Origin: Pelobates cultripes
Taxonomy: Eukaryota; Chordata; Amphibia; Anura; Pelobatidae
Assembly (NCBI GenBank): GCA_933207985.1
Contig: OW240912.1
Coordinates: 74,754,480-74,818,479, forward strand
Reading direction: 5' to 3'
Length of the DNA stretch: 64,000 nt
Shown: positions 13,101 through 56,800 of the stretch, piece by piece
How positions within the stretch are numbered: position 1 is the first letter of the stretch
How the letters are laid out: each line of letters begins with the position of its first letter
Position numbers and translations under genes: made by a program
Notes under the pieces: generated by a model
What the model saw: only the letters and a program-made list of their open reading frames with translations
Database searches by the model: none
What the model was told of the DNA's origin: nothing

Positions 13101-16100
13101 ACACAGATACATACACACAAGACACACATACATACAAAGACACATACAGACAGACAGGCACACATACATACATACATACAGACCGACACACAGACACAGA
13201 CAGATACATACACACATACATACAGAGACACACACACACATATACAAACACATACACACATACAGATACACATACATAAACACACACACAGACAGACATA
13301 CACAGACACATACATACAGACACATACACACACACACAGACAGACAGACACTCAAACACATACACACATACAAACAAAAACACACATATACAAAATGTTT
13401 AAGTCACCCTCCTGGTTCCCACTGTGACTCCTTCCTCCCGCAAGGGCTCTCACTGATAGCTAGGAGGAGTAATGGGCAGTCACTTACTCCCAGCTATGAT
13501 GTCATCACAGGGGGCCCAGTCGTGCTGTAAAAGCGCCGCAGCGCTGACCGGAGCCCCCTGGAAATTCATCTCCAGCAGGTGGCCCTCACAGCATGGGCCA
13601 CCCGATGGGCCCCTTGAATGTGCGGCCCCAGCGATTTGCCGCGGGGGCCGGGGCCAAAACACATGGCAGTGGGCACCCGGTTGCAGGGGTCCGCAAAATT
13701 CTTATATCATACATTTACATCTGGCAGGGGACAGCAGCTGCTTACTTCTCTCTGCTATGGTCTCTGAAACCCCACCCTTTGGTGTTATGAACCAATTATG
13801 GCCCCTGAATAGAAAGGCCAATAGTATGACTTCACTAATGGGCAGCTAGCTCTGCTGGTCGAATAGCAACTCAATAGGCGGCTCCTATAAGATAAGACAT
13901 GTGCAAAACCTGCTGAAATAGGACAGATTTCAAAACTGTCCCATATTTTTGACATGCCTAGTTGCTCTCAAAAGAACTTCTCCACACAGCAACCAATTGG
14001 GGGAAAGATTTTTTATTTTATTTTGAAATATATATGGAAATGGTTGGAGTATGTTAATCTAGTTTGTTTTCATATTTTTTAGATTATCTCGCTTCCCCTA
14101 GAAAACCAATCTTATTGCCCCTATAGATCAATCTCCACGGTTAAATCTACAGCAAATATGAGCTAATGGGATGAATAAGTATTAATTTAAAATTATGCTT
14201 TCTTATTTAATGACGTTACCTTTGGGTTGCAGCTGCAATACCTGCAATATGCGCAAGTGGACTATTCTTCCAGCCATCACATATTTTGGTCCATCATACA
14301 GTATGCAGCTCAGATTACCTCCATCAGACAAATTGACATTCTTAAATTCAATAGAAAAGTTTTGAGTCTTCAAAAAGTCCTTATTAGCTTCAATACGCTG
14401 GCTCCACCTGGTCCAAAATTGCACTGAATCCTTCTGAAAGTTAAATTCGACCAAATATATCCCGGTGCCTAAAATCCATACAACAGATGTGTCATTGCAC
14501 TGGGCTTGTTTTATTGTGTTAGTGTCTAGAACACAGGACAGTAGCACATCGGAAGTCACGTATCCCACAGTATCACTGTATTCCACAGGAGCATCATGGA
14601 TGCTGCGTGAAGATCGGCAACTGAAACTAACTTGTGAGAAAATAATACTATTACTATAAACACCAGAGATGCCCAGTCATTCAATACATTTAACAAATGC
14701 TGCAATATCAATAAAATTGCATTCCTTTACAAACAAAACAAATATCTATTGTTGTCCCCTCTCACAGTCAGTGGCAATCAGGGCTGGATTGCAGTAGGCA
14801 TGGAAGGCAGCTACCAAACATGCATGTCCACCAGGAGTACCTATTCTGTCTACAAATGTGTATTTTTTCCCTGATATTTTAACTTACATTTTTTTTTGTA
14901 ATTTTGCAATGTGATAATTACATATTTTATTTGCTCAAGTAAGGTGTGAGAGATATACTACATGACTCTTTTGGTCTCTTACACTAGATTAGTGCAGTAG
15001 TGCGGAATCTGCAAAGTTGGACTTTGGGTGAGGACATCCATGTACACTAAGGGGTTTATTTGCTAAACATAGAATTGTAGTGAAATGTAACCCCAAACTG
15101 CAAAATGAGGACAACAGTAGCTGTTTGAGAAAATAACTGAGCTATAATCACAGAATGGCTATTCTAGTATATATTTGTAATGTGGATTTTATTTCTACAA
15201 TTCGTTGTTTTTAAACTCCACAGTATCAAAAAATAATTCTTAATCTGATAACCTGATGCTGTCTGATCAAACGTTCACTATCAATGAGATCATGATTGCA
15301 TCTCCATTCTGCAATGTATACAAGTGTCCAGGATTTAGCAAAGTTGTTAGGATGAGCACTGTTTAAACACAGCTTTTTGTTTAACTAAAGAATGCGTAGT
15401 GTTTCGAATACCAAGGGATTAAAAGTAACTGTGACGGTAGTTACCGTCACTGGAGATGGAAGACAGACACTATGGGTGGGCTCCCAAACTCCTTTTGTGT
15501 TTTGTCACACTGTGCCTATTATTTGTGCAGGGTATGTTGAATGTATTGCTGGTCCCCCTTTTTCCTGTCCTATTGTTTCCCCAGCCGGGCGTTGTCCCAG
15601 GGACACTGCCAGACCAGTTTAAACTGGCTGCCCTGTCCCTCCTCAATCTCCCATAAGCCCTTGCTATTGTCTGACTCCACCCTTCCATGTACTGTGGTGC
15701 TCTTTTTAGCCTATTGTATGTAAATGAGGTTGTTGGGGGCTTAAACTATGTGTGCTGTATTCATTAAAGAGTTGCTGTTTAACCTTCACCATGTGTCGTC
15801 TGGTGTTTGGTCCAGGGTGGAAAAAACCCTAAGTGATCCCAGTCAAGCCTCGGTGTCTGGGTCTGAAGTGTTTCAGGGTCCCTGATAGCTACAAGGAAGC
15901 AGACTTGGCGGAGGTACTTGGTCCGAGTACTGGAGCTCCGTTACAGTAACCATAGACTGTAAAGTTTTAACCTTTTGGATCTCATCCAGAAGTTGTAGTT
16001 TTTGTACAGTCTATTGTTAGTTTTTGTCCCTGGTCCTTTTGAATCATAATCCCATCCTCTATTTTGTTTTTGTTTCCTTGATGTTGTTCTGCAACTGTTT

Positions 16101-23612: not shown

Positions 23613-23676
23613 CATATTTAAAGATTTCCTGGATAAATGTCAAACTTAAATTTTAAATGTTGTTCCTTTATATTAC

Positions 23677-24075
23677 CTGCAGTCTGCTGTTGCAATACCT
23701 GTAGGTGAATTGTTCTTACAGCCATCATGTAATCTGCTCCATCATAAAGGATACAGGTGAGATTGCCTCTGTCAGGTAAACTGATGTTCTTCAATATTAT
23801 GGAAAAGTTTTTGCTCTTCAAATATTCGCCAACTTCAATGCGGTGACCCCAGTTGTACCAAAACTGGACTGAAGCTTTATGGATATTAAATTCAACTAAA
23901 TGCATCCTGGTGTTTAAACTCCAGATAACAGCTGTATCATTGCACCGGGCTTGTCCAATTGTTTCATTGTCAAAGACGCAAGTCAGTAGGACATCAGAAG
24001 CGACATAACCCACAGTTTCACTGTATTCTACAGGGACTTCGTGGATGTAGTTTGAAGGCTGGCAACTGAAACTAA
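23677..24075 (-). CDS. Copy B exon 2: V-set immunoglobulin domain
   Basis: A 399-bp phase 1-1 exon between a polypyrimidine/acaag acceptor and a GTAATA donor. It encodes SFSC, VPVEYSETVGYVASDVLLTC, CNDTAVIW, a LVEFNIHKASVQFWYNW stretch, NFSIILKNISLPDRGNLTC and YDGADYMMAVRTIHLQVL. Core disulphide cysteines and Trp are present. N-glycosylation sites are NET, NDT, NFS, NIS and NLT. It lacks four codons relative to the copy A exon, mainly in the E-strand loop and at the 3' end. Confidence 0.75.
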
Positions 24076-26559
24076 CTTGTAAAAAAAAAAAATGTGATTA
24101 ATATGAAAATCAGACATGTTCAATCATCCACTACATGAAACACATTTTGCAATGCCAGCACAAAACACATTATTAAATCTGTAAAGCGCTTTCCCTGCTC
24201 ACATAGTCTTTACTGATACAGTACACAAACAGTTATGTGTACATATTTAGTACACCGATTATAAATGAACATTACCTATTTTTAAAAATTAAAGATAAAA
24301 TAAAGAACTGCCTATAGATATAATATAATTAAGGGGTGATATCAGCCAAACGGGTAGCATTTTGTGGCTATGTATGAATTTGATGAAACTGTGAAAATGG
24401 ACAATACTTCTTAACTGTTTGCATTATTAAAACAGGAAATTATTTTAAAGGTAGCATTGGCAAACTATATTTTATACTATACACACACACCTTGGCCTGT
24501 ATTCTATTCTATTTGCGTGTTAGTACAGATTTTTTTGATTTACCCATACTTCCAAAAATCAGCAGTTCTTTGATGTCTTTCCATAATATAGAGGGGCATC
24601 ACTAACAAAAATAAAACTACCCTAAAAAGTAACAGTTCACACAAACTAAATACACATACATAAATTATAGAGACAAAATGTACAAAATATCCATATTTAT
24701 TTTGTAGTGCCCTAGCAGGCACCTTTATTATACAGGACCATATAGATAGCTACATTGTACTGATTAGAGGTGTAGTGAAGGGGGATTAGAGGGGACAGGT
24801 GTCACAAGTGCCCCCCTGACATTTCCCCAACTCGCAGTCCTGTTTTCTCCATTCCACAAGCAAATTTTTGTTTTATATTAACGGTGGGTTTCACAATGAT
24901 GCTTCAGTCAGGGGTTGAAAGCGGCCTGTGAAACCTTCCTTTAATTAAAAAAAAATGCTTCATTGCCCATGTAATAGGGAGGGCAGGACTGTGGGTTTGG
25001 GAGATGTGAGGGGGGCTTCAGTGGTGGCAGTGATCTACTGTATTTGGTAGAAGGTTGCTGGGATGCCTGAGACACTCAGCACATGCAAATGTAGTAAGAA
25101 GACAAGGTAATAACATGCGTAAATGTGAGTCTACAGTTAGTAGGTAACAGTGTGTGTATGTAACAGTTTTAAACTGTGTGAGTATTAGTATGTGTTTACA
25201 TGTCTGTGTAACAGTGTATAACTGTATGTGTAGCTATGTATGTTTATGTAACCATGTGGTTCACAATGTGGGACAGTGTGTTTGTATGTGTATGGATCAG
25301 TAAATGTGTGTATTTGAGTCAATGTGTGTCATCAGGTCATTGTTTGTGTTTGTTTGTGGGCCAGTGTGTAAAGACATTGCGCTGCCTGGGTCCAAGGATG
25401 AAATGCTGCCCCTCCTTCCCCCCCAAAACTATGTGCACCAAAATATGCTATGCGTGATGTTTGCATGGCTGTGAGTGCTGTGTGAGTAGCTGTGAGTGGT
25501 GTGTGAGCATAGGCGTGCGCACGGGGTGTGCCGGGTGTGCATGGGCACACCCTAATCCCCGCGGCACGTCTATGTATTGAGACCGGCAGGGGAGATCTCA
25601 GGATCCCCCCTGTCGGCTCATGCAGAGCCGGCGCTATCCGAGCGCCGGCTCTGCTCTCAGCCTCCCTCCCCACCGACCCACAGGCAGGGAGGAAGGCAGG
25701 AGAGGACCCGGGGAGCTCTTGCCAGCAGCTCCGCCGGGTTCTTCTTGCGAGATCTGAGCGTTGCCGCGGTTACCGTGGCAACACTCAGATCTCCTGAGAG
25801 TGAACTCTAGCCCCGCAGGCTAGAGTTCACTCTCACCACTAGGACCACCAGGGAAGGCAGAAAGGATCCCCCCTCCCTGGCATAAGGTAACAAGGGAGGG
25901 GGATATTAAGCAATCTACCCCCACCTCCACTGGACCACCAGGGAAGGCAGCAGCACGGTCCCCCATCCCTACATAAGGTAAGAAGGGAGGGGGGATCTTT
26001 ATTAACTAATCTGCCCCCACCTCCACCCCCACAAATCACCCAAACAGCACACACACACAGCACACACATACAGCACACAAACAGCACACACACATCACAC
26101 ACCACACTCTCACACACACACACAGCACCCACACACAGCACCCACACACATACAGCAAACAAACATCACCCACACACACACACACACACAACATCCTCAC
26201 ACATACACCACACAAACAGAACACACATCACCCACACACACACAGCACCCACACACAGCACCCCCCCCCACACACACACACAGCAACCACACACACACAT
26301 ACGGCACCCACACACATACAGCACCCTCACACACACACAGCACACTAACAGTACCGTCACAAACACAAACAGCACCCTCACACAGCAAACTAACAGGACC
26401 CTAACAAACACACAGCACACTACCAGTACCCTCACACACAAACAGCACCCTCACACACAGTACATTAACAGCATCCTCACAAGCGCACAGTCGCACACAC
26501 ACACAAACACCCACATAGCACAGTACCAGCACCCTCACACAGCACAAACACACACAGCA

Positions 26560-33994: not shown

Positions 33995-35672
33995 ATGCCT
34001 ATCCCACGCATGCTTAAACTCCTTTACTGTGTTAACCTCTACCACTTCAGCTGGAAGGCTATTCCATGCATCCACTACCCTCTCAGTAAAGTAATACTTC
34101 CTGATATTATTTTTTTAAACCTTTGTCCCTCTAATTTAAGACTATGTCCTCTTGTTGTGGTAGTTTTTCTTCTTTTAAATATAGTCTCCTCCTTTACTGT
34201 GTTGATTCCCTTTATATATTTAAATGTTTCTATCATATCCCCCCTGTCTCGTCTTTCCTCCAAGCTATACATGTTAAGTTCTTTTAACCTTTCCTGGTAA
34301 GTTTTATCCCGCAATCCATGAACCAGTTTAGTAGCCCTTCTCTGAACCCTCTAAGGTATCAATATCCTTCTGAAGATACGGTCTCCAGTACTGTGTACAA
34401 TACTCCAAGTGAGGTCTCACCAGTGTTCTGTATAATGGCATGAGCACTTCCCTCTTTCTACTGCTAATACCTCTCCCTATACAACCAAGCATTCTGCTAG
34501 CATTTCCTGCTGCTCTATTAAATTGTCTGCCTACCTTTAAGTCATCAGAAATAATCACCCCTAGATCCCTTTCCTCATATGTTGAGGTTAGAACTCTATC
34601 AAATATTCTGTACTCTGCCCTTGGGTTTTTACGTCCAAGATGCATTATCTTGCACTTATCCACATTAAATGTCAGTTGCCACAATTCTGACCATTTTTCT
34701 AGTTTACCTAAATCATTTGTCATTTGGCTTATCCCTCCTGGAACATCAACCCTGTTACATATCTTAGTATCATCAGCAAAAAGACATACCTTACCATCAA
34801 CCTTCTGCAATATCACTAATAAAAATATTAAAGAGAATGGGTCCAAGTACAGATCCCTGAGGCACCCCACTGGTGACAAGTCCAAGCTTCGAATATATTC
34901 CATTAACTACAACCCTCTGTTGCCTGTCACTCAGCCACTGCCTTACCCATTCAACAATATTGGAATCCAAACTTAAAGATTGCAGTTTATTGATAAGCCT
35001 TCTATGTGCAACAGTGTCAAAAGCCTTACTGAAATCTAGGTAAGCAATGTCTACTGCACCACCCTGATCTATATTTTAGTTACCCAATCAAAAAAATCAA
35101 TAAGATTAGTTTGGCATGATCTCCCTGAAGTAAACCCATGTTGTCTCTGATCTTGAAATCCATGTGTTTTTAGATGTTCATCAATCCTATCCTTTAACAT
35201 GGTTTCCATCACTTTCCCCACTACTGAAGTAAGGCTTACTGGCCTATAGTTGCCCGACTCCTCCCTATTACCTTTCTTGTAAATGGGCATAACATTCGCT
35301 AACTTCCAATCTTCTGGGACTACTCCTGTTAACAATGATTGGTTAAAAAAATCTGTTAATGGTTTTGCTAGTACACCACTAAGCTCTTTTAATAGCTTTG
35401 GGTGTATTCCATCAGGTCCCATTGACTTATTTGTCTTTACTTTTGACAGTTGAAATAGAACCTCTTCCTCTGTAAACTCACGTGTAATAAATGACTCATT
35501 TATCCTTTTTCTCAACTTTCCTTCATTTTCATCTGTAAATACAGAACAAAAATATTCATTGAGGCAGTCAGCTAGACCTTTATCCTCTTCTACATACCTT
35601 CCTTCTTTTGTTTTTAATCTAACTAATCCTTGTTTTACTTTTCTTTTCTCATTTATGTATCTAAAAAATGTT
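33995..35672 (-). pseudogene. CR1 ORF2, reverse transcriptase and C-terminus
   Basis: Blocks in order: FTEEEVLFQLSKVKTNKSMGPDG and LLTGVVPEDWKLANVMPIYKKG with NYRPVSLTSVVGKVME (35069-35515). Then, after a break, GKVCLFADDTKI, the catalytic FADD box, LTFNVDKCKIMHLG, and LVRPHLEYCTQYWRPYLQKDI (34328-34903), and finally ERLKELNMYSLEERRDRGD (34075-34314). Frameshifts between the blocks show it is not translated as one protein. Confidence 0.85.
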
Positions 35673-36800
35673 TTATCCCCCTTTTTTACTGACTGCTATT
35701 TTCTCTTCTGTGTGTGATTTGGAAGCTCTTATAACTTGCTTAGCCTCTTTCTGCCTAATCTTATAGATCATTTTGTCTCCCTCACTCTGGTTTTTTTTAT
35801 AATTCCTAAATGCTAACTTTTTGTTTTTAACTATTTTGGCCACATCTGCAGAGTACCACAGTGGTTTCTTGAATTTTTTGCTTTTACTGACAAGCCTAAT
35901 GCAATTTTCTGTTGCCTTCAATAGTGCAACTTTTAAATAATCCCATTTCTCTTGGACTCCATTTAAATTGCTCCAGTCTGATAATGACTCCTCTACCCAT
36001 ATTCTAATTTTAGAAAAGTCTGTTTTTCTAAAGTCTAAAACTTTTGTTTTTGTGTGGTGTGACTCAGTCACTGTTCTTATATTAAACCACACTGACTGAT
36101 GATCACTGGATCCTAAACTTTCACCTACAGTAACATCTGATACCAAATCTCCATTTGTTAACACTAAATCTAGTATGGCCTCTTTACGAGTTGGCTCCTC
36201 AACAACTTGTTTTAGAGACAATCCCAGTAGGGAGTTTAGAATATGTGTGCTCCTGGCACAAGTAGCTAATTTTGTTTTCCAATTTACATCAGGAAGATTA
36301 AAGTCACCCATGATGATAACTTCCCCCTTCATTGTCATTTTAGCTATTTCCTCAACTAGTAGATTATCTAACTCTTCAATTTGTCCTGGGGGCCTATAAA
36401 TCACACCTACACGAGTTACTGTGTGATTACCAAATTCTAACGTAGCCCAAACGGACTCTATGTTTGCCTCACTAACTTTTATTAGGCTAGATTTTATGCT
36501 ATCCTTCACATACAAGGCCACCCCTCCCCCTTTCTTGCCTTCCCTATCTTTCCTATATAAAGAGTACCCTGGTATTGCTATGTCCCAGTCATTTTTCTCA
36601 TTGTACCATGTCTCAGTAATAGCGACTAAATCTACACTCAGTTGCCATTATTGCCACAAGTTCATGGATCTTATTCCCTAAACTGCGAGCATTTGTAGAC
36701 ATGACTCTAAGCTTATCATTTTTTAACACACTTGCTACAGGCACCTTCTGTCCTTGTTTTGGGGGACAATTGGATTGATGTTTTATCACCCTTTTGCCCC
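35673..36800 (-). pseudogene. CR1 ORF2, endonuclease domain
   Basis: Upstream text STNARSLGNKIHELV (about 36690) and GGGVALYVKDSIKSS lead into the APE-type endonuclease: VGVIYRPPG, VIIMGDFNLPDVNW (the GDFN box), LVLTNGDLV and GSSDHQSVWF (the catalytic SDH motif). A 282-codon frame is open at 35673-36521; the first part is in another frame. The endonuclease nicks target DNA for target-primed reverse transcription. Confidence 0.85.
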
Positions 36801-41556: not shown

Positions 41557-42805
41557 TCACCTATTTTTTTTATTAAAATCTCCACCTCTCCAATTTTTTT
41601 GTACTAATTTAATTGCGCAAAAGAATAGGTCTCTTGGATTACTATTGTGATAAATGTTGTAATGTTGTGAAACACTATGTGTTTCTAGACCTTTTCTTAT
41701 ATTGCATAGATGTCCTGCAATTCTGACATGTAAACACCTAATAGTCCTACCAACATAGATTAAATCGCAAGGACACTTTAAAATATAAATCACATGTTTT
41801 GAAAAACAAGTGCTCGTTTTTGATAGCAAATTCTCTTTTATCTTTATATGTGAAGGAGGTAATATGTCTTTTTGTTTCTCTACAAGCAGGGCAGGAACCA
41901 CATCCATAAAATCCTTTATTTTTATTTAAAAAATGTTCTGTAGGTTGTGTTTTAAAACTACTTTTCACTAAAATCTGTTTAAGATTTCTACATCCTCGAT
42001 AGACCATTTTAGGATTATGAGGTAGAATTTTATTTAATAAAGGATCTTCTTTTAAAATAGGCCAATATTTTTTGATAATTTCATTAATTTTATTGTTGTT
42101 GCCACTATGCTTGCATATAAAGGGTATGTCAAACGTATTCCTATTAGAGGATTTATTATGTATCTTTTTATTTTTGTAACATATAAGATCTTTTCTTTCA
42201 ATTTTCTTAACTTCTTCCATGCAATTTTGTAATTTTCCGGTGTCATAGCCTTTTTCTACAAGCTGTTCTTTAATTTTTTCTGCTTGGGAAACATAATCAA
42301 CATCTTGCGTGCAATTTCTCCGTATCGGTAAGAACTGGCTCTTAGGTGCATTTGTTAGCCATGGTGGATAATGGCAACTATTCATCTCGATGTAACTATT
42401 TGCATCAACATCTTTAAAATGATTCCTAGTATGGATAGTAGAATTTAAAATAAAAATTTCCAAATCTAAAAAATTGATTTGGTTAGTGCTATACGTAGAG
42501 GTTAAAATGATCCCCCAATTGTTGTTATTCAATTCATCTAAAAATAAATTAAGACTTTCTTCTCCTCCTTTCTAGATTAAAAATATATCATCGATGTATC
42601 GATGATAGGACACCAAGTTCGCTGCCGCCATATGTGAAAACACTAGCTTCTTCTCCCAGTATGCCATAAAAAGGTTTGCATAACTGGGAGCGAACTTGGT
42701 GCCCATCGCTGTTCCTGTAATTTGCATAAAAAAATGAATCTTTAAACCAGAAAAAATTGTTTTCTAAAATCCCTTCAAGTATAAAATCTATTTGTGGTTC
42801 TTTAA
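41557..42805 (-). pseudogene. Penelope-like reverse transcriptase/GIY-YIG endonuclease, copy 2
   Basis: On the minus strand a decayed RT reads YHRYIDDIF near 42580-42610 (the RT active-site YxDD box). Then comes a 261-codon frame (41747-42532) with NQINFLDLEI, SYIEMNSCHYPPWL, SQFLPIRRNC and the Cys-rich linker GFYGCGSCPACRETKR. After a frameshift, HVIYILKCPCDLIYVGRTIRCLHVRIAGH (41557-41907) gives the GIY-YIG-type nuclease core with its Arg. This is the domain order of endonuclease-bearing Penelope-like elements. The 5' half is cut off by a retroelement insertion at ~42806 and frames are broken, so it is inactive. Confidence 0.9.
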
Positions 42806-44238
42806 AATCTATTTTTTTTTTAATTCTTTATTTTTGCATGTGCATATAAATAACAGACAAGCGTGCATGGCCACGACAGCAACTGCAGGCATATTCATGG
42901 CATTTCAATGAGTGGCATTTGATACAGCACATTTTTTTTTTTTTTTTATACATGAGAACAACAAGTTTTGTTTCTTTCTAGACATGCATATGACATTCCT
43001 AAGTACTTCCAGGGTTAATAATATGTTTAGTCGATTAACAGTTATTTTTCAAGCTAGGACAACAACACTACTATCATATTATTAGAGTTAGGTAGTCGCT
43101 ATGAAACAATGTTAGATTAGATTAACCATGTTAATGAGGCTATAGCTTATAAGCATGTTATGCAGTATAGTAATAGTTGGAAAATGCGTGGTTATCACCC
43201 TGGTGGATCGGGGGGTCCCCGAGCTGCCTCCGTGGGAAAGGGTTGGCATCCTAGTGAGTCCAAGACTTTTCATATAGGTGCAGTCCAGTTTTTCCCCAAT
43301 ACCTGCTCTGTTGTGACTATGTAGTGGGGAGCAAGCGTCCTTCAGAGCAGGCCTCGGAGCATGGGTTGTCTGTGTGTAATTCTGCGTTGTTCACTGTGGT
43401 CCTCCGAGGTATAGCCTGAGCAGGGTGGGCTTGCCGCTTTTGGTCATCCGCAGGTTGGTGTCCGCCATGTTTAAGCGTTGGGGGTATCCGCGGAGATCTG
43501 TAGCTCTCCGGGGTGTCCTGTTAAAGTCTGAGTAGTAAGCGGGTACAGGGTTGGTCTGCTAGCAGAAGTGTTTTGCTGGGCAGATGGCACGGGAATGGTC
43601 GATGCTTGGTATCCTATCTCTTAAGTGCCGCTGCTGTCACCCACCCCCTCGAGCCACCTGTTGCTCGTGTTGTTGGCTTGTGTTGTTGCGGGGATTAGCA
43701 CGAACATTGGTGCTTCCTTGTGTGGCGGGATCTTATATCAGGAGTTGTTTTGTGGGTAGTGGACACTAGGAGGGAGGTTTTTTTCTTTTCCTCATGCCGT
43801 CAGCGCACATGGCGCCCGCCATCTTGGAGGCAGCGAACAGGCTCCCCGGCCTCAATTGCAGAATCCCGCTTATGGCCTACTGGGTGAGGACCGGGATCAC
43901 CCCCCCCCCCGGTCCATAGAGGAGGGGGGGACGGAGCCGGGTCTGCGCCGATCAGGGCTTTTGGCTGGGCTTTGTGGTGCAGGATAGAGAGGCAGCGGCC
44001 GTCTGCCCCGCTCACCGCCGGAGAAGGTCCGGGTTAGGGCACCGAGATCCACTCCCCCCGGGGACTGTAGCTCAGCGAGCCAGCCTCTCCCCGGGTCCAG
44101 CTGTCCCCCGGCACTGGGCATCTGTGCTGTCGGTCCACTTTAGGTTAAAGATGTTTTTAGCGAGTTTTCAGTAGTGTTTTGCCAGAGTCGCTCTGACTTG
44201 CGACCGTCCAGCTCAGCGGCCCGGCTCCGCCCCCCTTT
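42806..44238 (-). mobile_element. 1.4-kb poly(A) retroelement inserted into Penelope copy 2
   Basis: On the minus strand it starts with the GC-rich module (44235 downwards: gggcggagccgggccgctg) and ends at 42810 with an A-rich tail preceded by an AATAAAG-like signal. The Penelope-like text 'aaaatctatttgtggttctt' and a 'tttaaaatctattt' direct repeat occur on both sides, consistent with a target-site duplication. No reverse transcriptase is inside, so it is probably a non-autonomous or internally deleted relative of the element whose 5' modules are at 1-596 and 32000-33195. ORFs of ~70 codons are GC artefacts. Confidence 0.65.
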
Positions 44239-50800: not shown

Positions 50801-53800
50801 AGATATCTCTCGGTGTCATCAGCATACAGGTGGTAGTTGAATCCAAAAGAGGTAATAAGTTTGCCAAGAGGGGCAGTATAAAGAGAAAATAAAAGGGGAC
50901 CAAGGACGGACTCCAACTGAGACAGGACGAGGGGAGGAGTTATGATTAGAAAAGGAGACGCTGAATGAGCGTTGGGAGAGATAAGAGGAAAACTACGACA
51001 GGACAGAGTCACAGAGACCGAGTGATTAAAGAGTTTGAAGAAGGAGAGCATGATCAATGGTGTCAAAGGCAGCAGAGAGGTCAAGAAGAATTAGTATGGA
51101 GTAGTGGCCTTTGGATTTAGCTGTGATTAGGTCGTTAGTAACTTTGATAAGAGCAGTCTTAGTAGAGTGGAGAGGGCAGAAGCCAGATTGAAGAGGGTCG
51201 AGGAGAGAGTTGGAATTGACGAAGTGAGACATACAGGTAAAGACGAGTCTTTCCAGAAGCTTTGGGGAGAAAGGGAGCAGGGATATGGGACGATAGTTAG
51301 AGGGGGAGGACGGGTCAAGAGATGTTTCTTCAGGATAGGTACTACAGTGGCATGTTTAAGGTCAGCAGGGACAACACCAGAAAAGCGAGAGCAGGGGAAG
51401 ATATGTGTTAAGGAAAGCACAAGACAGCGGGGAGAGAGATATGCTAAGGTGAGATGGGATAGGATCGAGCGGGCAAGTGGTGGAGCGAGAGGAAAGGAGA
51501 AGTGCCTCATGGCCTTCTATGTGAGAGCTTGTGCAAACACAATAAGCTCTTTTTTCATAAGAACTGAATAAAATCTGTATGCACAATGTAGTTGTAGGTT
51601 TAACTCATAATTTATATTATGAATACACCAAATCTTATCCTGCTTTATTGCAGATTTTATGCAAATATCTCCATTTTCTTTTCATGATGCAGAATGGCCA
51701 CATTGGGCTTCCATATTTTCTTCTAAAATTTTAATTTGTAATTTTAATTAATCTAAGCTTATTATGGCTGCACAGCTTCCAGGAAAAGACCAAGTAGTAA
51801 ACGTCATATTGATTCATATTATGATGATTGCATAGAGCCATAGACCATCATTGGTCAATAAGAGGTTAAGCAAAAAATGAATGTCACAAAAATACATCTA
51901 TAATATCTTGTATAGGAAATCAAATAATCTTTTTTTTCTATTTTGTCTTTCACAGTTGGGCATAATGAAAGGTGAGTTTGATGAAGCTGAAGATATACTA
52001 CACCAGGCTCTCCATCTGGGTCAGGAGTCTGATTCGAAGAGAGCCATTATCTACACCTATGACCTGGTAAATGTATATCATTCACATGGGCTTTATGCAA
52101 GACTAAACCTCAAAGTGCCTGTGGATGTACCATCAAGAGGCCTGTGATTAAATGTCCGTCCCCACATGTCTCCCAACACTAGATTACATGATATTAAAAT
52201 GTATATTATTTCTCTGATGGCAGGGAGTTACGGCACTACTGTGACCTCTGAAATGGTCTACCAATAGCACTGTTTCTAAAAAAAAAATGTCATGTGTGTA
52301 ATTTTATAACTTGTGAAATTCTGCTTTTCATCCACCATTTTACACTGGGATAGATTTCCAGCTATTCTCTTGAAAAGAAAAAAAATATCATGCTTAATTA
52401 TTAATGGGATAGAAGACTCCTCTTCTATCCAGAAGTCACTTTATGGAGTAGTTTTCATTGTCTTATTTCTTCTCAAGCAGTTTTGACATGCAAATTATGC
52501 ACAGCAACAAGCTTTGGAATATTTTGAATAGCAACTACTAGTATTTTTTTTTTCTTTCTTCTGAATGTATTTGCTACATAACCAAAAATATAGTTTTGTG
52601 TGTCACGAATCCAGCCATTGAAATATCTAGAATATAGTGCAGTTGCTTCTTGTGCAGAGATTGTTGTCAGTCACAGTCAGGGGAGGTGTGGCTAGGGCTG
52701 CATAAACAGAAACAAAAGTGATTTAACTCCTGAATGGCAGTGAATTGAGCAGTGAGACTTCAGATGCACGATCTACACACACAAACTGCTTCATTAAGCA
52801 AAAGTTGTTTTGGTGACTATAGTGTCCATTTAATTATAAAATGACAAATCTGCTGATTCTAAGAATGTTTTAAACAGTTTTTGTACAAGAATGAGAATGC
52901 ATTTTGCACTATAGCAGTCCTGACTTGTAGTGCCATGAAGGAATTAAATTAGGCTTTTAACGGCCTGGACGCCAATACTCATGTAATACTGAGTGAACTA
53001 TATTTCAATAGCAATTGCAAATTCCTCAGTTAAACTGTATTTCTCAGTTACCTTTACCATATATTTATCTTGTGATTTGTGTCGGTCTCTTGGAAAAGTA
53101 TTCATACGAATCATACAAGAGTATTTACCAAAGTGAGAATTCAAAGTGAATTTTAAACTTAAGGCCAAAGTAGCCAAACTGGAAGCATTGTTGATCAGTT
53201 CAGGTATTTTTCCATGAATTTGAAATTCACTTTTAATTCTCACTTTATTGAATATCCCAGATATTGTCTAGGTGACTGTTGCGTGCTTGATCAGCGAATA
53301 ACTATGACTTTTTTTCTTTTCTTTTCAGATGGCTAACTTGGCTTTTTTTAGAGGGCGCTTGGATGACGTAAGTAAAGTTAAAGAATACTCCAGGCACATA
53401 AATAACCTCAGACCTGCTGACGTCTGTTAATTTTTGAAAAGGAGTTATGGTAGGGTGTGGAACTGCTCTCTATCCCTTTATGTAGTATGTAGCTGGGTGC
53501 AACTTGGACAGTCTCAGTACCAGAGACCAAATGGTGAGTAACAAAAATAGAAGAAAGGTCCAGGCACTCTAAGGTACAAACCAGGCAATTTTATTGAACC
53601 CACTCCATCACAACGTTTTGACCTACACCGTCTTTGTCAAGCTTGACAAAAAGACTGTGTAGGTCGAAACCTTGTGATGGAGTGGGTTCAATCAAATTGC
53701 CTGGTTTGTACCTTGGCGTGCCTGGACCTTTTTTCTATGTCTGTAATTTTTTTGACAGTTTATAGAAGTGCCATTTTTAATAGAAATGTAAACGTTTATA

Positions 53801-56800
53801 ATTGGAGGCATAAACACATTCCTGGCAGCCACTCAGACAGACAGGGAGGTTTTCTTCTGCTTTGGTTAACACCACAGACCTAACAGAAGTGTCAAGCGCT
53901 TTCCCCTCTTGTCAATATGCTGTATTTCACTCATTGAGAAACATTGTAAAGCCATCATGGCGTGCGTGCCCAATTACGGCTCCAGAATGAAAGTCTGTTG
54001 ATAAGAGCTCCCTTAGGCAAGTCTGTAACTTTTGCAAACTTTATATATATGTATATATATAGAGAGCAAACAATGGGTCGCAAGAGTATTCTGAGAACGG
54101 ACAGCAGCTAAAATAGCCTGCCCTTCGGTGGGTCCCCGCTCAGAACTCATGCTGGTTTTAGCTCAACTTGTGCCATTACAGAGAGAACATATCTGAAGCA
54201 TATCAGACTGGTCCCACCCATGCGGGCAGTCCAGACCCGAAATGCCAGCAAGTTCTCTCTGCACGAGAGATACAGCAACCCCAGACGATCGTTTCAGCCT
54301 TGTTAGGCATCGTCAGTGAGGCATAGCTGATATCTCTAGGCACCGTGAGCAAGGGGTCCACGTCTGGATTACCCTTTAAACTAATGGAGAGCAAACAATG
54401 GGTCGCAAGAGTATTCTGAGAACGGACAGCAGCTAAAATAGCCTGCCCTTCGGTGGGTCCCCGCTCAGAACTCATGCTGGTTTTAGCTCAACTTGTGCCA
54501 TTACAGAGAGAACATATCTGAAGCATATCAGACTGGTCCCACCCATACGGGCAGTCCAGACCCGAAATGCCAGCAAGTTCTCTCTGCACGAGAGATACAG
54601 CAACCCAGACGATCGTTTCAGCCTTGTTAGGCATCGTCAGTGAGGCATAGCTGATATCTCTCTAGGCACCGTGAGCAAGGGGTCCACGTCTGGATTACCC
54701 TTTAGACTAATGGAGAGCAAACAATGGGTCGCAAGAGTATTCTGAGAACGGACAGCAGCTAAAATAGCCTGCCCTTCGGTGGGTCCCCGCTCAGAACTCA
54801 TGCTGGTTTTAGCTCAACTTGTGCCATTACAGAGAGAACATATCTGAAGCATATCAGACTGGTCCCACCCATACGGGCAGTCCAGACCCGAAATGCCAGC
54901 AAGTTCTCTCTGCACGAGAGATACAGCAACCCCAGACAATCGTTTCAGCCTTGTTAGGCATCGTCAGGGGTGCGGCGGCGGGTGGGGGCCCCAAGTCAAA
55001 TTCACCCCATCAATGGTGACTAAATAAAAATTCAGAGCGCAAAAAAAAAAAAAACCCGACGAAAAAGAAAAAACCCGAGCGCAAAAAAATCCATCTTCTT
55101 CACCCATGGAGGGCTCCGCGCAGACTGAGCTCCGCAGGGCAGGGAAGGCTTATAAAGCCTTGCCCCGCCCTGCAATTATGCTAAGAACACTCTGATTGGT
55201 GGGTTTAAGCCAATCAGAGTGCTCTTTGTCATTTTACACAGCGTGGGAAAATTCCAAAGAACTTTCCCACGCTGTGTAAAATGACACAGAGCACTGTGAT
55301 TGGATGGATTTAAAGCCATCCATTCACAGTGCTCTGTGTCATTTTACACAACGTGGGAAAGTTCTTTGGAATTTTCCCACGCTGTGTAAAATGACACAGA
55401 ACACTATCATTATGTAAGATAAGACATACTAAAACATATTATGCGCAATACTTTAGTCAACTATTTATTTTGAGTTGTTGTTTGGGGCCAGAGGAGCATG
55501 ACGTTCTTTTCCAATCCTCACTGCAAACAGGTCTCAATTTATAGAACCCCAGACAGGGGTTAACAAAAATTGATTTGTTTTACATCAATGCCAGGATTAA
55601 AATGTGAGAATTTTGAATAACTTGACATTACCAGTGGAATCCCTAGATATTAACCTACTAACATTTTTCTTATACAACTTGTAATAAAATTATATTTACA
55701 AGTATTTCTTAGTATACAGGTCATTTATAAATTGTGCAGAGTTGAATAGCTAAATCATTTTCTACACCAATTGTTACTTGTTGTTTTTTTTTATTTTTTT
55801 ATAATTTATGTTTCTTTTATTTATATGTGGGAGATGCCTGACAAAAAGCTAAAAATGCCAGAAACATGCACAATTTGCAAAAGTAGCAAGAAGGCATAAG
55901 CATACATTCCCATTTTACTATGTTATAGTACAGCCTCAATAACAAAACAATTGCCCCACTCCATATATCATCAGAAGATATACAGTGGCAATAAAACTAA
56001 TAGGACATTGGCATGCAATAAAAATGAAGCCTTGATAAGACTAATGACAACCTAAACCAAATGAAAGTAGAGAGGTGAAGCATAATGTTGCATCATCCGA
56101 GCAGGATATGGTTTCAAACTTAAAACCCCTAACCAAGGGAACAGTGGAGGTGGGAGGAGGGGGTGGAGGAAATAGACAAAAAATTAGGTTAAGACTTAAA
56201 CCATGGTGGTCGACCTATTTACATTGCAAGCATCTGGCCTAACGCAGTAGAGCTTAGAACAGTCAACAAACTAAAATAAATTGTATAAAAGCAAAATACA
56301 TTTTAAAAGAACAGTTTAGAGTGTCATACTTCAGCCCTAGCTTGCTCCTTAGGAATAACTTGAGTAATTTTTCGAACATCCCAAACGTGGGTGGTAAAAG
56401 CCGCAGATGAAGTCAAGGGAGACTGGTGTATATTCAGCACAGCGTGGAATTGATGGCTCTTATCAGGTGAGGATATTTGTGTAGGGTGACTTCCTTCTGG
56501 ACAACCAGGGCTCACGATAGACCACATCTGTAGGAAATCCCAGCATTTCTTATTATTTGAGTAATAGGGCTCATAATGTACCACCAAAGTGTAAAACTAT
56601 GTAAGTTGTGATAAAAAAAAAGTTGGTGCTCTTCAAAGCCTTAAAGAATCTTATTCTAAAGAGCCGGCATAATGCAGGCTTTGCCGCATAAGGTTTGGCA
56701 ATGGATAATGACATCTCTGTGTGAGGAGTTTGGATGCTCTGAGTAGATAAATCTTCTAGAGCACCAATGTGTCAATTCGTTCACCATCTCAGCAGTAGCG

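Follow-up and report, generated by a model that had tools for sequence, protein, structure and literature searches.

A tandem array in the genome of the frog Pelobates cultripes is probably a copy of a non-coding hammerhead retrozyme, inserted by the reverse transcriptase (RT) of a Penelope-like element (PLE) that would start at a fixed internal point of a multimeric RNA and would often prime on both strands of a staggered cut. The array lies in a window of 64,000 nucleotides, which is the whole stretch of DNA analysed here (assembly GCA_933207985.1, contig OW240912.1, positions 74,754,480 to 74,818,479, forward strand). PLEs as the partner and RNA circles as the template of animal retrozymes have been proposed, not shown (PMC7229834). 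Many fresh copies are present in this one genome, and their anatomy partly answers how animal retrozymes move: the start of copying appears to be internal and fixed, both DNA ends appear to be primed, and most of the arrays in which this can be tested seem to have had a template other than one monomer circle.

Structure of the array

Tandem repeat analysis (TRF) reports one array at 54062-54967 with a period of 326, 2.8 copies and 98% matches, and the tandem array of ~325 bp described in the initial annotation is therefore real. The RNA strand is the minus strand, which puts the 3′ end of the array at 54062; the 5′ end, at 54967, is truncated. Unit positions are counted from the predicted cleavage site, which is position 1. 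The features are as follows.

54062..54967, minus strand: tandem retrozyme array, 2.8 units of ~326 bp
54284..54316, minus strand: hammerhead core of unit 1, C3 to C17, with predicted cleavage between 54284 and 54283
54317..54336, minus strand: 5′ strand of stem I, unit 1
54266..54283, minus strand: 3′ strand of stem I, unit 1
54608..54640, minus strand: hammerhead core of unit 2
54935..54967, minus strand: hammerhead core of unit 3, the array 5′ end being at C3, without the 5′ strand of stem I
54083..54148, minus strand: hairpin just before the putative reverse-transcription start, unit positions 135-199
54408..54473, minus strand: the 135-199 hairpin in unit 2
54062..54084, minus strand: fixed 3′ end of insertions, ending in CTTGCGACCCATTGTTTGCTCTC, the putative reverse-transcription start
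54042..54061, no strand assigned: (TA)-rich target sequence at the 3′ junction of the array
41560..42820, minus strand: decayed PLE with RT and GIY-YIG-like frames, a relative of the presumed mobiliser and not part of the array

On the minus strand, CTGACGA-TGCCTAACAAGGCT-GAAACGATCGTC occurs at 54284-54316 and 54608-54640, and the core pattern of the hammerhead ribozyme (HHR) matches twice in the window vs 0 times in 100 shuffles. The third copy (54935-54967) has the same core with CGATTG as the stem III loop. A ribozyme had been assigned to every unit; this holds for the cores, which all three units carry, and not for complete HHRs, of which there are only two, since the third copy begins at C3 without the 5′ strand of stem I.

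The minus-strand unit reads C3UGACGA9, stem II GCCU-AACA-AGGC, G12AAA15.1, ACGAUCGU (ACGAUUGU in unit 3) and then C17, so that the CUGACGA, GCCU/AGGC stem and GAAA noted earlier are all present. Stem II is flanked by U on both sides, which gives a U10.1-U11.1 mismatch at the stem base, a natural HHR variant (PMC3088659). Stem I of unit 1 is long: the CCUCA/UGGGG pairing already proposed is confirmed and is lengthened by CAGC/GCUG and GAGAUA/UAUCUC. Unit 2 is one G shorter at this place (UGGG followed by U), which removes the fifth of the proximal stem I pairs.

The unit has the core bases and the three stems of a type I hammerhead. Its length of 326 bp falls inside the 170-400 bp range of metazoan non-LTR retrozymes, its G+C content is 51% (a value <50% is a tendency of that group and does not define it), and it has no coding capacity, the longest stop-free stretch in a retrozyme trimer being 68 aa. 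Judged by the sequence of its ribozyme, the element is an amphibian retrozyme, an already known kind, and a new member of that family. The earlier placement of the array in a TTC19 intron found no backing, as a crude motif scan of the window gave no recognisable TPR exon.

Beside the array, at 55150-55400, there are nested inverted repeats (CATTTTACACAGCGTGGGAAA...) that look MITE-like by eye. At 53560-53720 there is a near-perfect palindrome, likewise seen by eye, that resembles a hairpin mobile element.

Conservation and predicted folding of the ribozyme

The genome (3.09 Gb) gave at least 210 unit matches, from 40 scored of 1209 candidates; 40 regions, the window's own included, produced 246 unit alignments. 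Being the best DNA matches, the 40 loci are young and few, and two of them (L034 and L035), which have the 5′ flank in common, probably go back to a single insertion that was duplicated. Arrays range from ~1 to 15 units. Two subfamilies are distinguished, with between-locus identities of 99.4% (A-A), 97.7% (B-B) and 92.2% (A-B).

The predicted ribozyme is under constraint in this family. Compared with the window unit, the 40 most diverged units (<94% identity) have 1.8% mismatches in the core, 1.9% in stem II and 1.1% in stem III vs 8.8% in the sequence outside the HHR. Among 73 units of <98% identity, 34 variants are common to at least five units; only one of these lies in the 33-nt core, at N7, which is the one free core base of the HHR. 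The majority sequences of A and B differ at 21 positions, and within the 70-nt HHR only at N7 (depletion P = 0.04 with N7, 0.007 without it). In 16 of 18 loci the HHR is also less diverged than the remaining unit sequence; of the two exceptions, one gave no comparison. Rare variants of any kind are scarcely depleted in the HHR core (31 of 397 vs ~40 expected), as would be expected for copies that are dead after insertion. Conservation of the motif above background among genomic copies, whose absence would have spoken against the initial annotation, was thus found.

Another point named there as speaking against the annotation, the lack of a covariance-model match, does hold: Rfam gives none for the array. 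No hammerhead appears in the window or the array at the gathering threshold or at E<=10, and the array is without any family at E<=10. The same search at E<=10 finds no hammerhead family at six other retrozyme loci and no hammerhead on one flank each of eight PLE loci. This silence weighs less because Rfam also misses the HHR motifs of the PLEs of the same genome. A search of IMG/VR with the HHR pattern returned 0 matches.

For the lone HHR, an energy model without tertiary terms predicts a trap in which GACGAU pairs with AUCGUC (P ~0.99), the predicted fold having -38.4 kcal/mol vs -19.5 kcal/mol for the drawn active fold. For the dimer, the drawn fold has -53.8 kcal/mol vs a minimum of -81.0 kcal/mol. 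Cleavage of the Amex2 repeat monomer of the axolotl is weak, at 22% in one hour (PMC7229834). The predicted trapping agrees with that weak activity and would also agree with uncleaved templates.

Ends and target sites of the insertions

The 3′ end of the insertions is fixed, ~223 nt past the predicted cleavage site. Complete 3′ ends fall at unit positions 218-226 in 44 of 52 cases and at 211-235, that is within 25 nt, in 51 of 52, a count that leaves out one internal run (in L047, ending at 291) and includes two cut ends that were completed with further sequence. The 5′ ends of 53 runs are scattered over the unit, and 5 of them lie no more than 15 nt from the cleavage site vs 4.9 expected. Target site duplications (TSDs) of at least 8 bp are found in 22 of 38 uncut elements vs 2.2% of mismatched flank pairs, three of the 22 being TA repeats. 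Their G+C content is 28% vs 40% in the flanks. Read from these alignments, retrozyme TSDs are ~8-20 bp long and their sites AT-rich; where present, they exceed 4 bp, as in metazoan non-LTR retrozymes. In the flanks of the window array a TSD was looked for and none was found.

These features bear on whether the array might instead be an ordinary DNA satellite with a fossil ribozyme, propagated through extrachromosomal circles of DNA or by unequal exchange. Tandem organisation and the old decayed units inside long arrays would suit such an origin. Exchange, however, does not make TSDs, a single fixed end or the dispersal over at least 12 contigs that the retrozyme has, and the HHR is constrained between subfamilies; a satellite would require its TSDs to have arisen by chance. 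This origin is disfavoured and very improbable. The preferred reading is retrotransposition, and the constrained type I HHR, the palindromic stem III and the apparent dispersal by this route uphold the earlier view of a frog ribozyme satellite.

Hairpin upstream of the putative start point

A hairpin stem at 135-199 ends ~24 nt upstream of the start point. Its pairs 138-196 and 139-193 are U-A in subfamily A vs A-U in subfamily B, so that both are compensated. These two pairs, from one comparison, are suggestive of a recognition hairpin.

Head-to-head doubles

Head-to-head doubles make up 12 of the 40 loci (L009, L011, L013, L014, L016, L025, L030, L042, L043, L045, L046 and L047), and among the same 40 loci there are 0 tail-to-tail retrozyme pairs. 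Both outer ends lie at unit positions 211-250 in all 12. TSDs of 10-20 bp are present in 8 of the 12 and were not found in L009 (flank partly N), L013, L014 and L043. The spacing from arm to arm is 0-13 bp in 11 of the 12, and L016 has a gap of Ns.

The fixed 3′ end, the 5′ truncation and the TSDs are all LINE-like, and insertion by a LINE through L1/CR1-like target-primed reverse transcription, with the doubles formed by ordinary twin priming, must be weighed. A LINE with endonuclease (PF14529, PF03372) and RVT_1 pieces is present in the window itself at 34331-36647 (minus strand). Its family is abundant: the LINE probe gave 123 scored genome hits, and since these are 97-100% identical and many have long frames of ~950 codons, the family is young. 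In twin priming, the outer end of the inverted part lies at varying internal points. The retrozyme doubles are unlike this, both outer ends being at the same point in 12 of 12. Moreover, no two of the 123 scored LINE hits lie within 10 kb of each other (by eye), with a probe that covers the endonuclease (5′) part and that short inverted 5′ pieces would escape. A LINE is accordingly quite improbable as the mobiliser, and copying primed on both strands by a PLE enzyme is preferred.

Four doubles (L009, L025, L042, L047) combine one arm of subfamily B with another that is A or mixed. Private mutations per 100 sites (B arm/A arm) are 0/0 in L042 and 0.44/0.28 in L025; with TSDs and similar arm ages, these two look like clean cases, as if two RNAs had been copied in one event. 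L009 (0/0.74, without a TSD) and L047 (1.48/0) are, on their unequal private mutations, not clean cases of this kind. Unequal arms are what might be expected if the doubles had arisen in two steps, a later insertion landing at the 5′ end of an earlier one. The outer TSDs, the narrow spacing of the arms and the similar arm ages in L042 and L025 all argue against this sequence of events, which is considered improbable, if slightly less so than a LINE. Priming of both ends in one event is the reading retained here.

Template RNA

Mixed RNA multimers probably served as template more often than a single RNA circle. Seven sites are diagnostic. Of the 38 non-B runs that have three units or more, 24 carry a mixture of alleles at one of these sites or at several, and the other 14 show no such mixture. 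Mosaic tests were carried out on 37 strand-arrays with at least three units at >=96% identity, which leaves out the B arms. These arrays hold 174 within-array variants that recur at other loci and 121 that do not recur; of the shared differences, just 2 are fixed. Within-array variance at the seven sites is 0.6-1.0 of that of a random family draw (B arms left out). Arrays fixed for the alternative allele at the seven sites, which are not mutually independent, number 2 vs 23.5 expected under one circle per array (B arms again left out), and polymorphic arrays number 3-15 per site vs 0 expected under one-circle copying. Of the four B arms, which have 3-5 units each, two are uniform and the other two vary at a single site.

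The published model is rolling-circle copying, in which a monomeric retrozyme RNA, self-cleaved and ligated into a circle, is copied into tandem cDNA. Tandem arrays follow naturally from it, and circular RNAs of ~330-350 nt are abundant in the axolotl (PMC7229834). One monomer circle appears compatible with the 14 unmixed arrays and with the four arms of pure B, which show little or no variation at the diagnostic sites. The 24 arrays that mix alleles known from other loci and the shortage of fixed-alternative arrays stand against it, and for mosaic arrays the model is largely refuted. Frequent switching between circles could rescue it, as could later gene conversion, which may also be a source of the mosaicism. 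As a general account, rolling-circle copying is unlikely. The initial annotation had proposed spread through circular RNA intermediates; taken as arrays copied round one monomer circle, this would fit the uniform arrays and B arms, and not the mosaic majority. Retrozyme circles may all the same occur at the RNA level.

Linkage between variants falls with distance and is unbroken at the cleavage site (position 298 to position 47 of the next unit, r 0.36) and at the 3′ end point. Adjacent units are modestly alike (r 0.09-0.46), and the order of units is shared between arrays no more than by chance. As no unit order recurs beyond chance, a multimer template and RNA switching are both retained: a mixed, uncleaved multimer or frequent RNA switching would fit the mosaic arrays, and a single monomer circle would not.

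Two further ideas were rejected. Linear monomers joined at the cleavage site do not agree with the intact linkage there or with 5′ ends that are not enriched there. Shared unit order as proof of one source multimer was dropped, as it stays at chance level.

Penelope-like elements of the genome

The decayed PLE of the window, 12 kb from the array, was used as a probe for the PLEs of the genome. Its protein has 141 scored relatives (34,797 candidates), many with open frames of ~820 codons. Pfam gives no match for the PLE pieces or for an intact frame of 824 aa, and PDB gives none. The identification as PLE follows from 828 homologues of the 824-aa frame, many with an RT domain and some with GIY-YIG, including Anolis proteins with both.

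The PLEs share the insertion footprint of the retrozyme. Neighbours within 10 kb among the 141 scored relatives are head-to-head in 17 cases, tail-to-tail in 0 and on the same strand in 6. A narrow TSD search that took the two arms of each of six PLE doubles to end at the same place stayed at chance level for that reason. Over 160 bp outward, the longest shared direct repeats of the six are 14, 14, 14, 18, 10 and 7 bp, compared with 6-11 bp in 30 mismatched control pairs. Four of the 6 PLE doubles thus have repeats of 14-18 bp as TSDs, a size as in the retrozyme doubles.

One head-to-head PLE pair (G000:C1:73776700-73786200, L050+L049+L051) has 3.6-kb arms that are 99.95% identical, two 824-codon frames and an HHR. 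It has a 14-bp direct repeat at its outer ends, and it may be an assembly artefact.

In 20 copies of one PLE family, 3′ ends gather at two points. The near, sharp point has 6 copies plus one diverged copy, and the far point, ~85 nt on, has 8 (two with a common flank); 3 copies end past it and 2 earlier. A motif CTGAGGAAGCC...GGCGAAACGCGT occurs in 8 of 8 PLEs examined, in PLE8 on one of two flanks only. There is some resemblance between the retrozyme end CCATTGTTTG and the PLE ends CCATTGTGTTTG and CCATTTCTTGC. With the window unit, 1 of 4 PLE sites has its best match at the retrozyme end (5.7% of control 26-mers do so), which is not significant, and only a minor retrozyme variant matches two PLE sites by 11 nt. 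A likeness between this end and the PLE start sites is thus only suggestive.

All eight PLEs carry a minimal hammerhead, CTGAGGA-A-GCC...GGC-GAAACGCGT(T/A)TT, in which an additional A precedes stem II.

Biochemical work on an Anolis PLE protein describes internal starts at two adjacent sites and AT-rich DNA of which both strands are cut and extended (PMC11167929). This element, Poseidon_Ac, is like the retrozyme in its fixed internal start, its use of both target strands, its AT-rich targets and its HHR, and its two start sites match the two 3′ end points seen in the 20 copies of one PLE family; it differs in being autonomous, whereas the retrozyme is non-coding (PMC11167929). Since the footprint of the retrozyme is shared by resident PLEs and predicted by this published biochemistry, a PLE enzyme is the likely mobiliser. 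The both-strand, internal-start behaviour of one PLE in the tube (PMC11167929) would thereby be extended to genomic insertions.

The anatomy as a whole speaks for copying on both strands by a Penelope enzyme, with mixed multimers as the usual template. A PLE protein would bind the hairpin upstream of the start point and open the target DNA with a staggered cut. Reverse transcription would begin at one fixed internal point of the retrozyme RNA, and each of the two 3′-OH ends could prime the copying of such an RNA. Where both cDNAs survive, they would be joined head-to-head. Rather than one monomer circle, the template would mostly be an uncleaved mixed multimer, or the enzyme would switch RNAs.

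A wider proposal, which is put forward tentatively, is that animal retrozymes are PLE parasites that need no circle as template. A PLE dimer might bring two different uncleaved multimers to one staggered cut, where both would be copied outward from the same hairpin-marked start and joined head-to-head, and the ribozyme would have a role other than template making. The RNA, the hairpin and the start site are now named for direct assay.

Comparison with known systems

Several described systems share parts of this design. The closest by description is the axolotl repeat Rtz_353 with its ribozyme HHR_Amex2, which has a type I HHR whose stem II carries a U-U mismatch at its base, a stem III of two pairs plus a tetraloop, and a tandem repeat of ~350 bp, with PLEs that carry minimal HHRs alongside (PMC7229834). 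The Pelobates unit has this form of HHR too and is ~326 bp long, and the two are likened by description, not by sequence. Newt satellite 2 and the HHR_Amex1 type, which cleave better as dimers, are likewise an amphibian satellite of ~330 bp with a weak palindromic stem III; the Amex1 type differs in having one stem III pair and no U-U mismatch (PMC7229834). Interspersed repeats with HHRs are also described from another frog, Xenopus tropicalis, and are again likened by description, not by sequence (PMC3088659). Plant LTR retrozymes are similar in being non-autonomous, with an HHR and circular RNA, and different in their type III HHR, LTRs and 4-bp TSDs (PMC7229834).

As far as the open-access literature was searched, the insertion anatomy is new, and it may be described elsewhere. 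The head-to-head doubles were not met in that literature, and the main text of PMC7229834, where such an insertion anatomy was not met, contains neither 'inverted' (0 occurrences) nor 'truncat' (0 occurrences).

Other features of the window

Far from the array, two similar immunoglobulin V-set-like exons are present on the minus strand at 14206-14676 and 23621-24097, ~9.4 kb apart. One of them has a Pfam V-set match at 3e-4, below the cut-off. The pair perhaps represents tandem paralogous genes.
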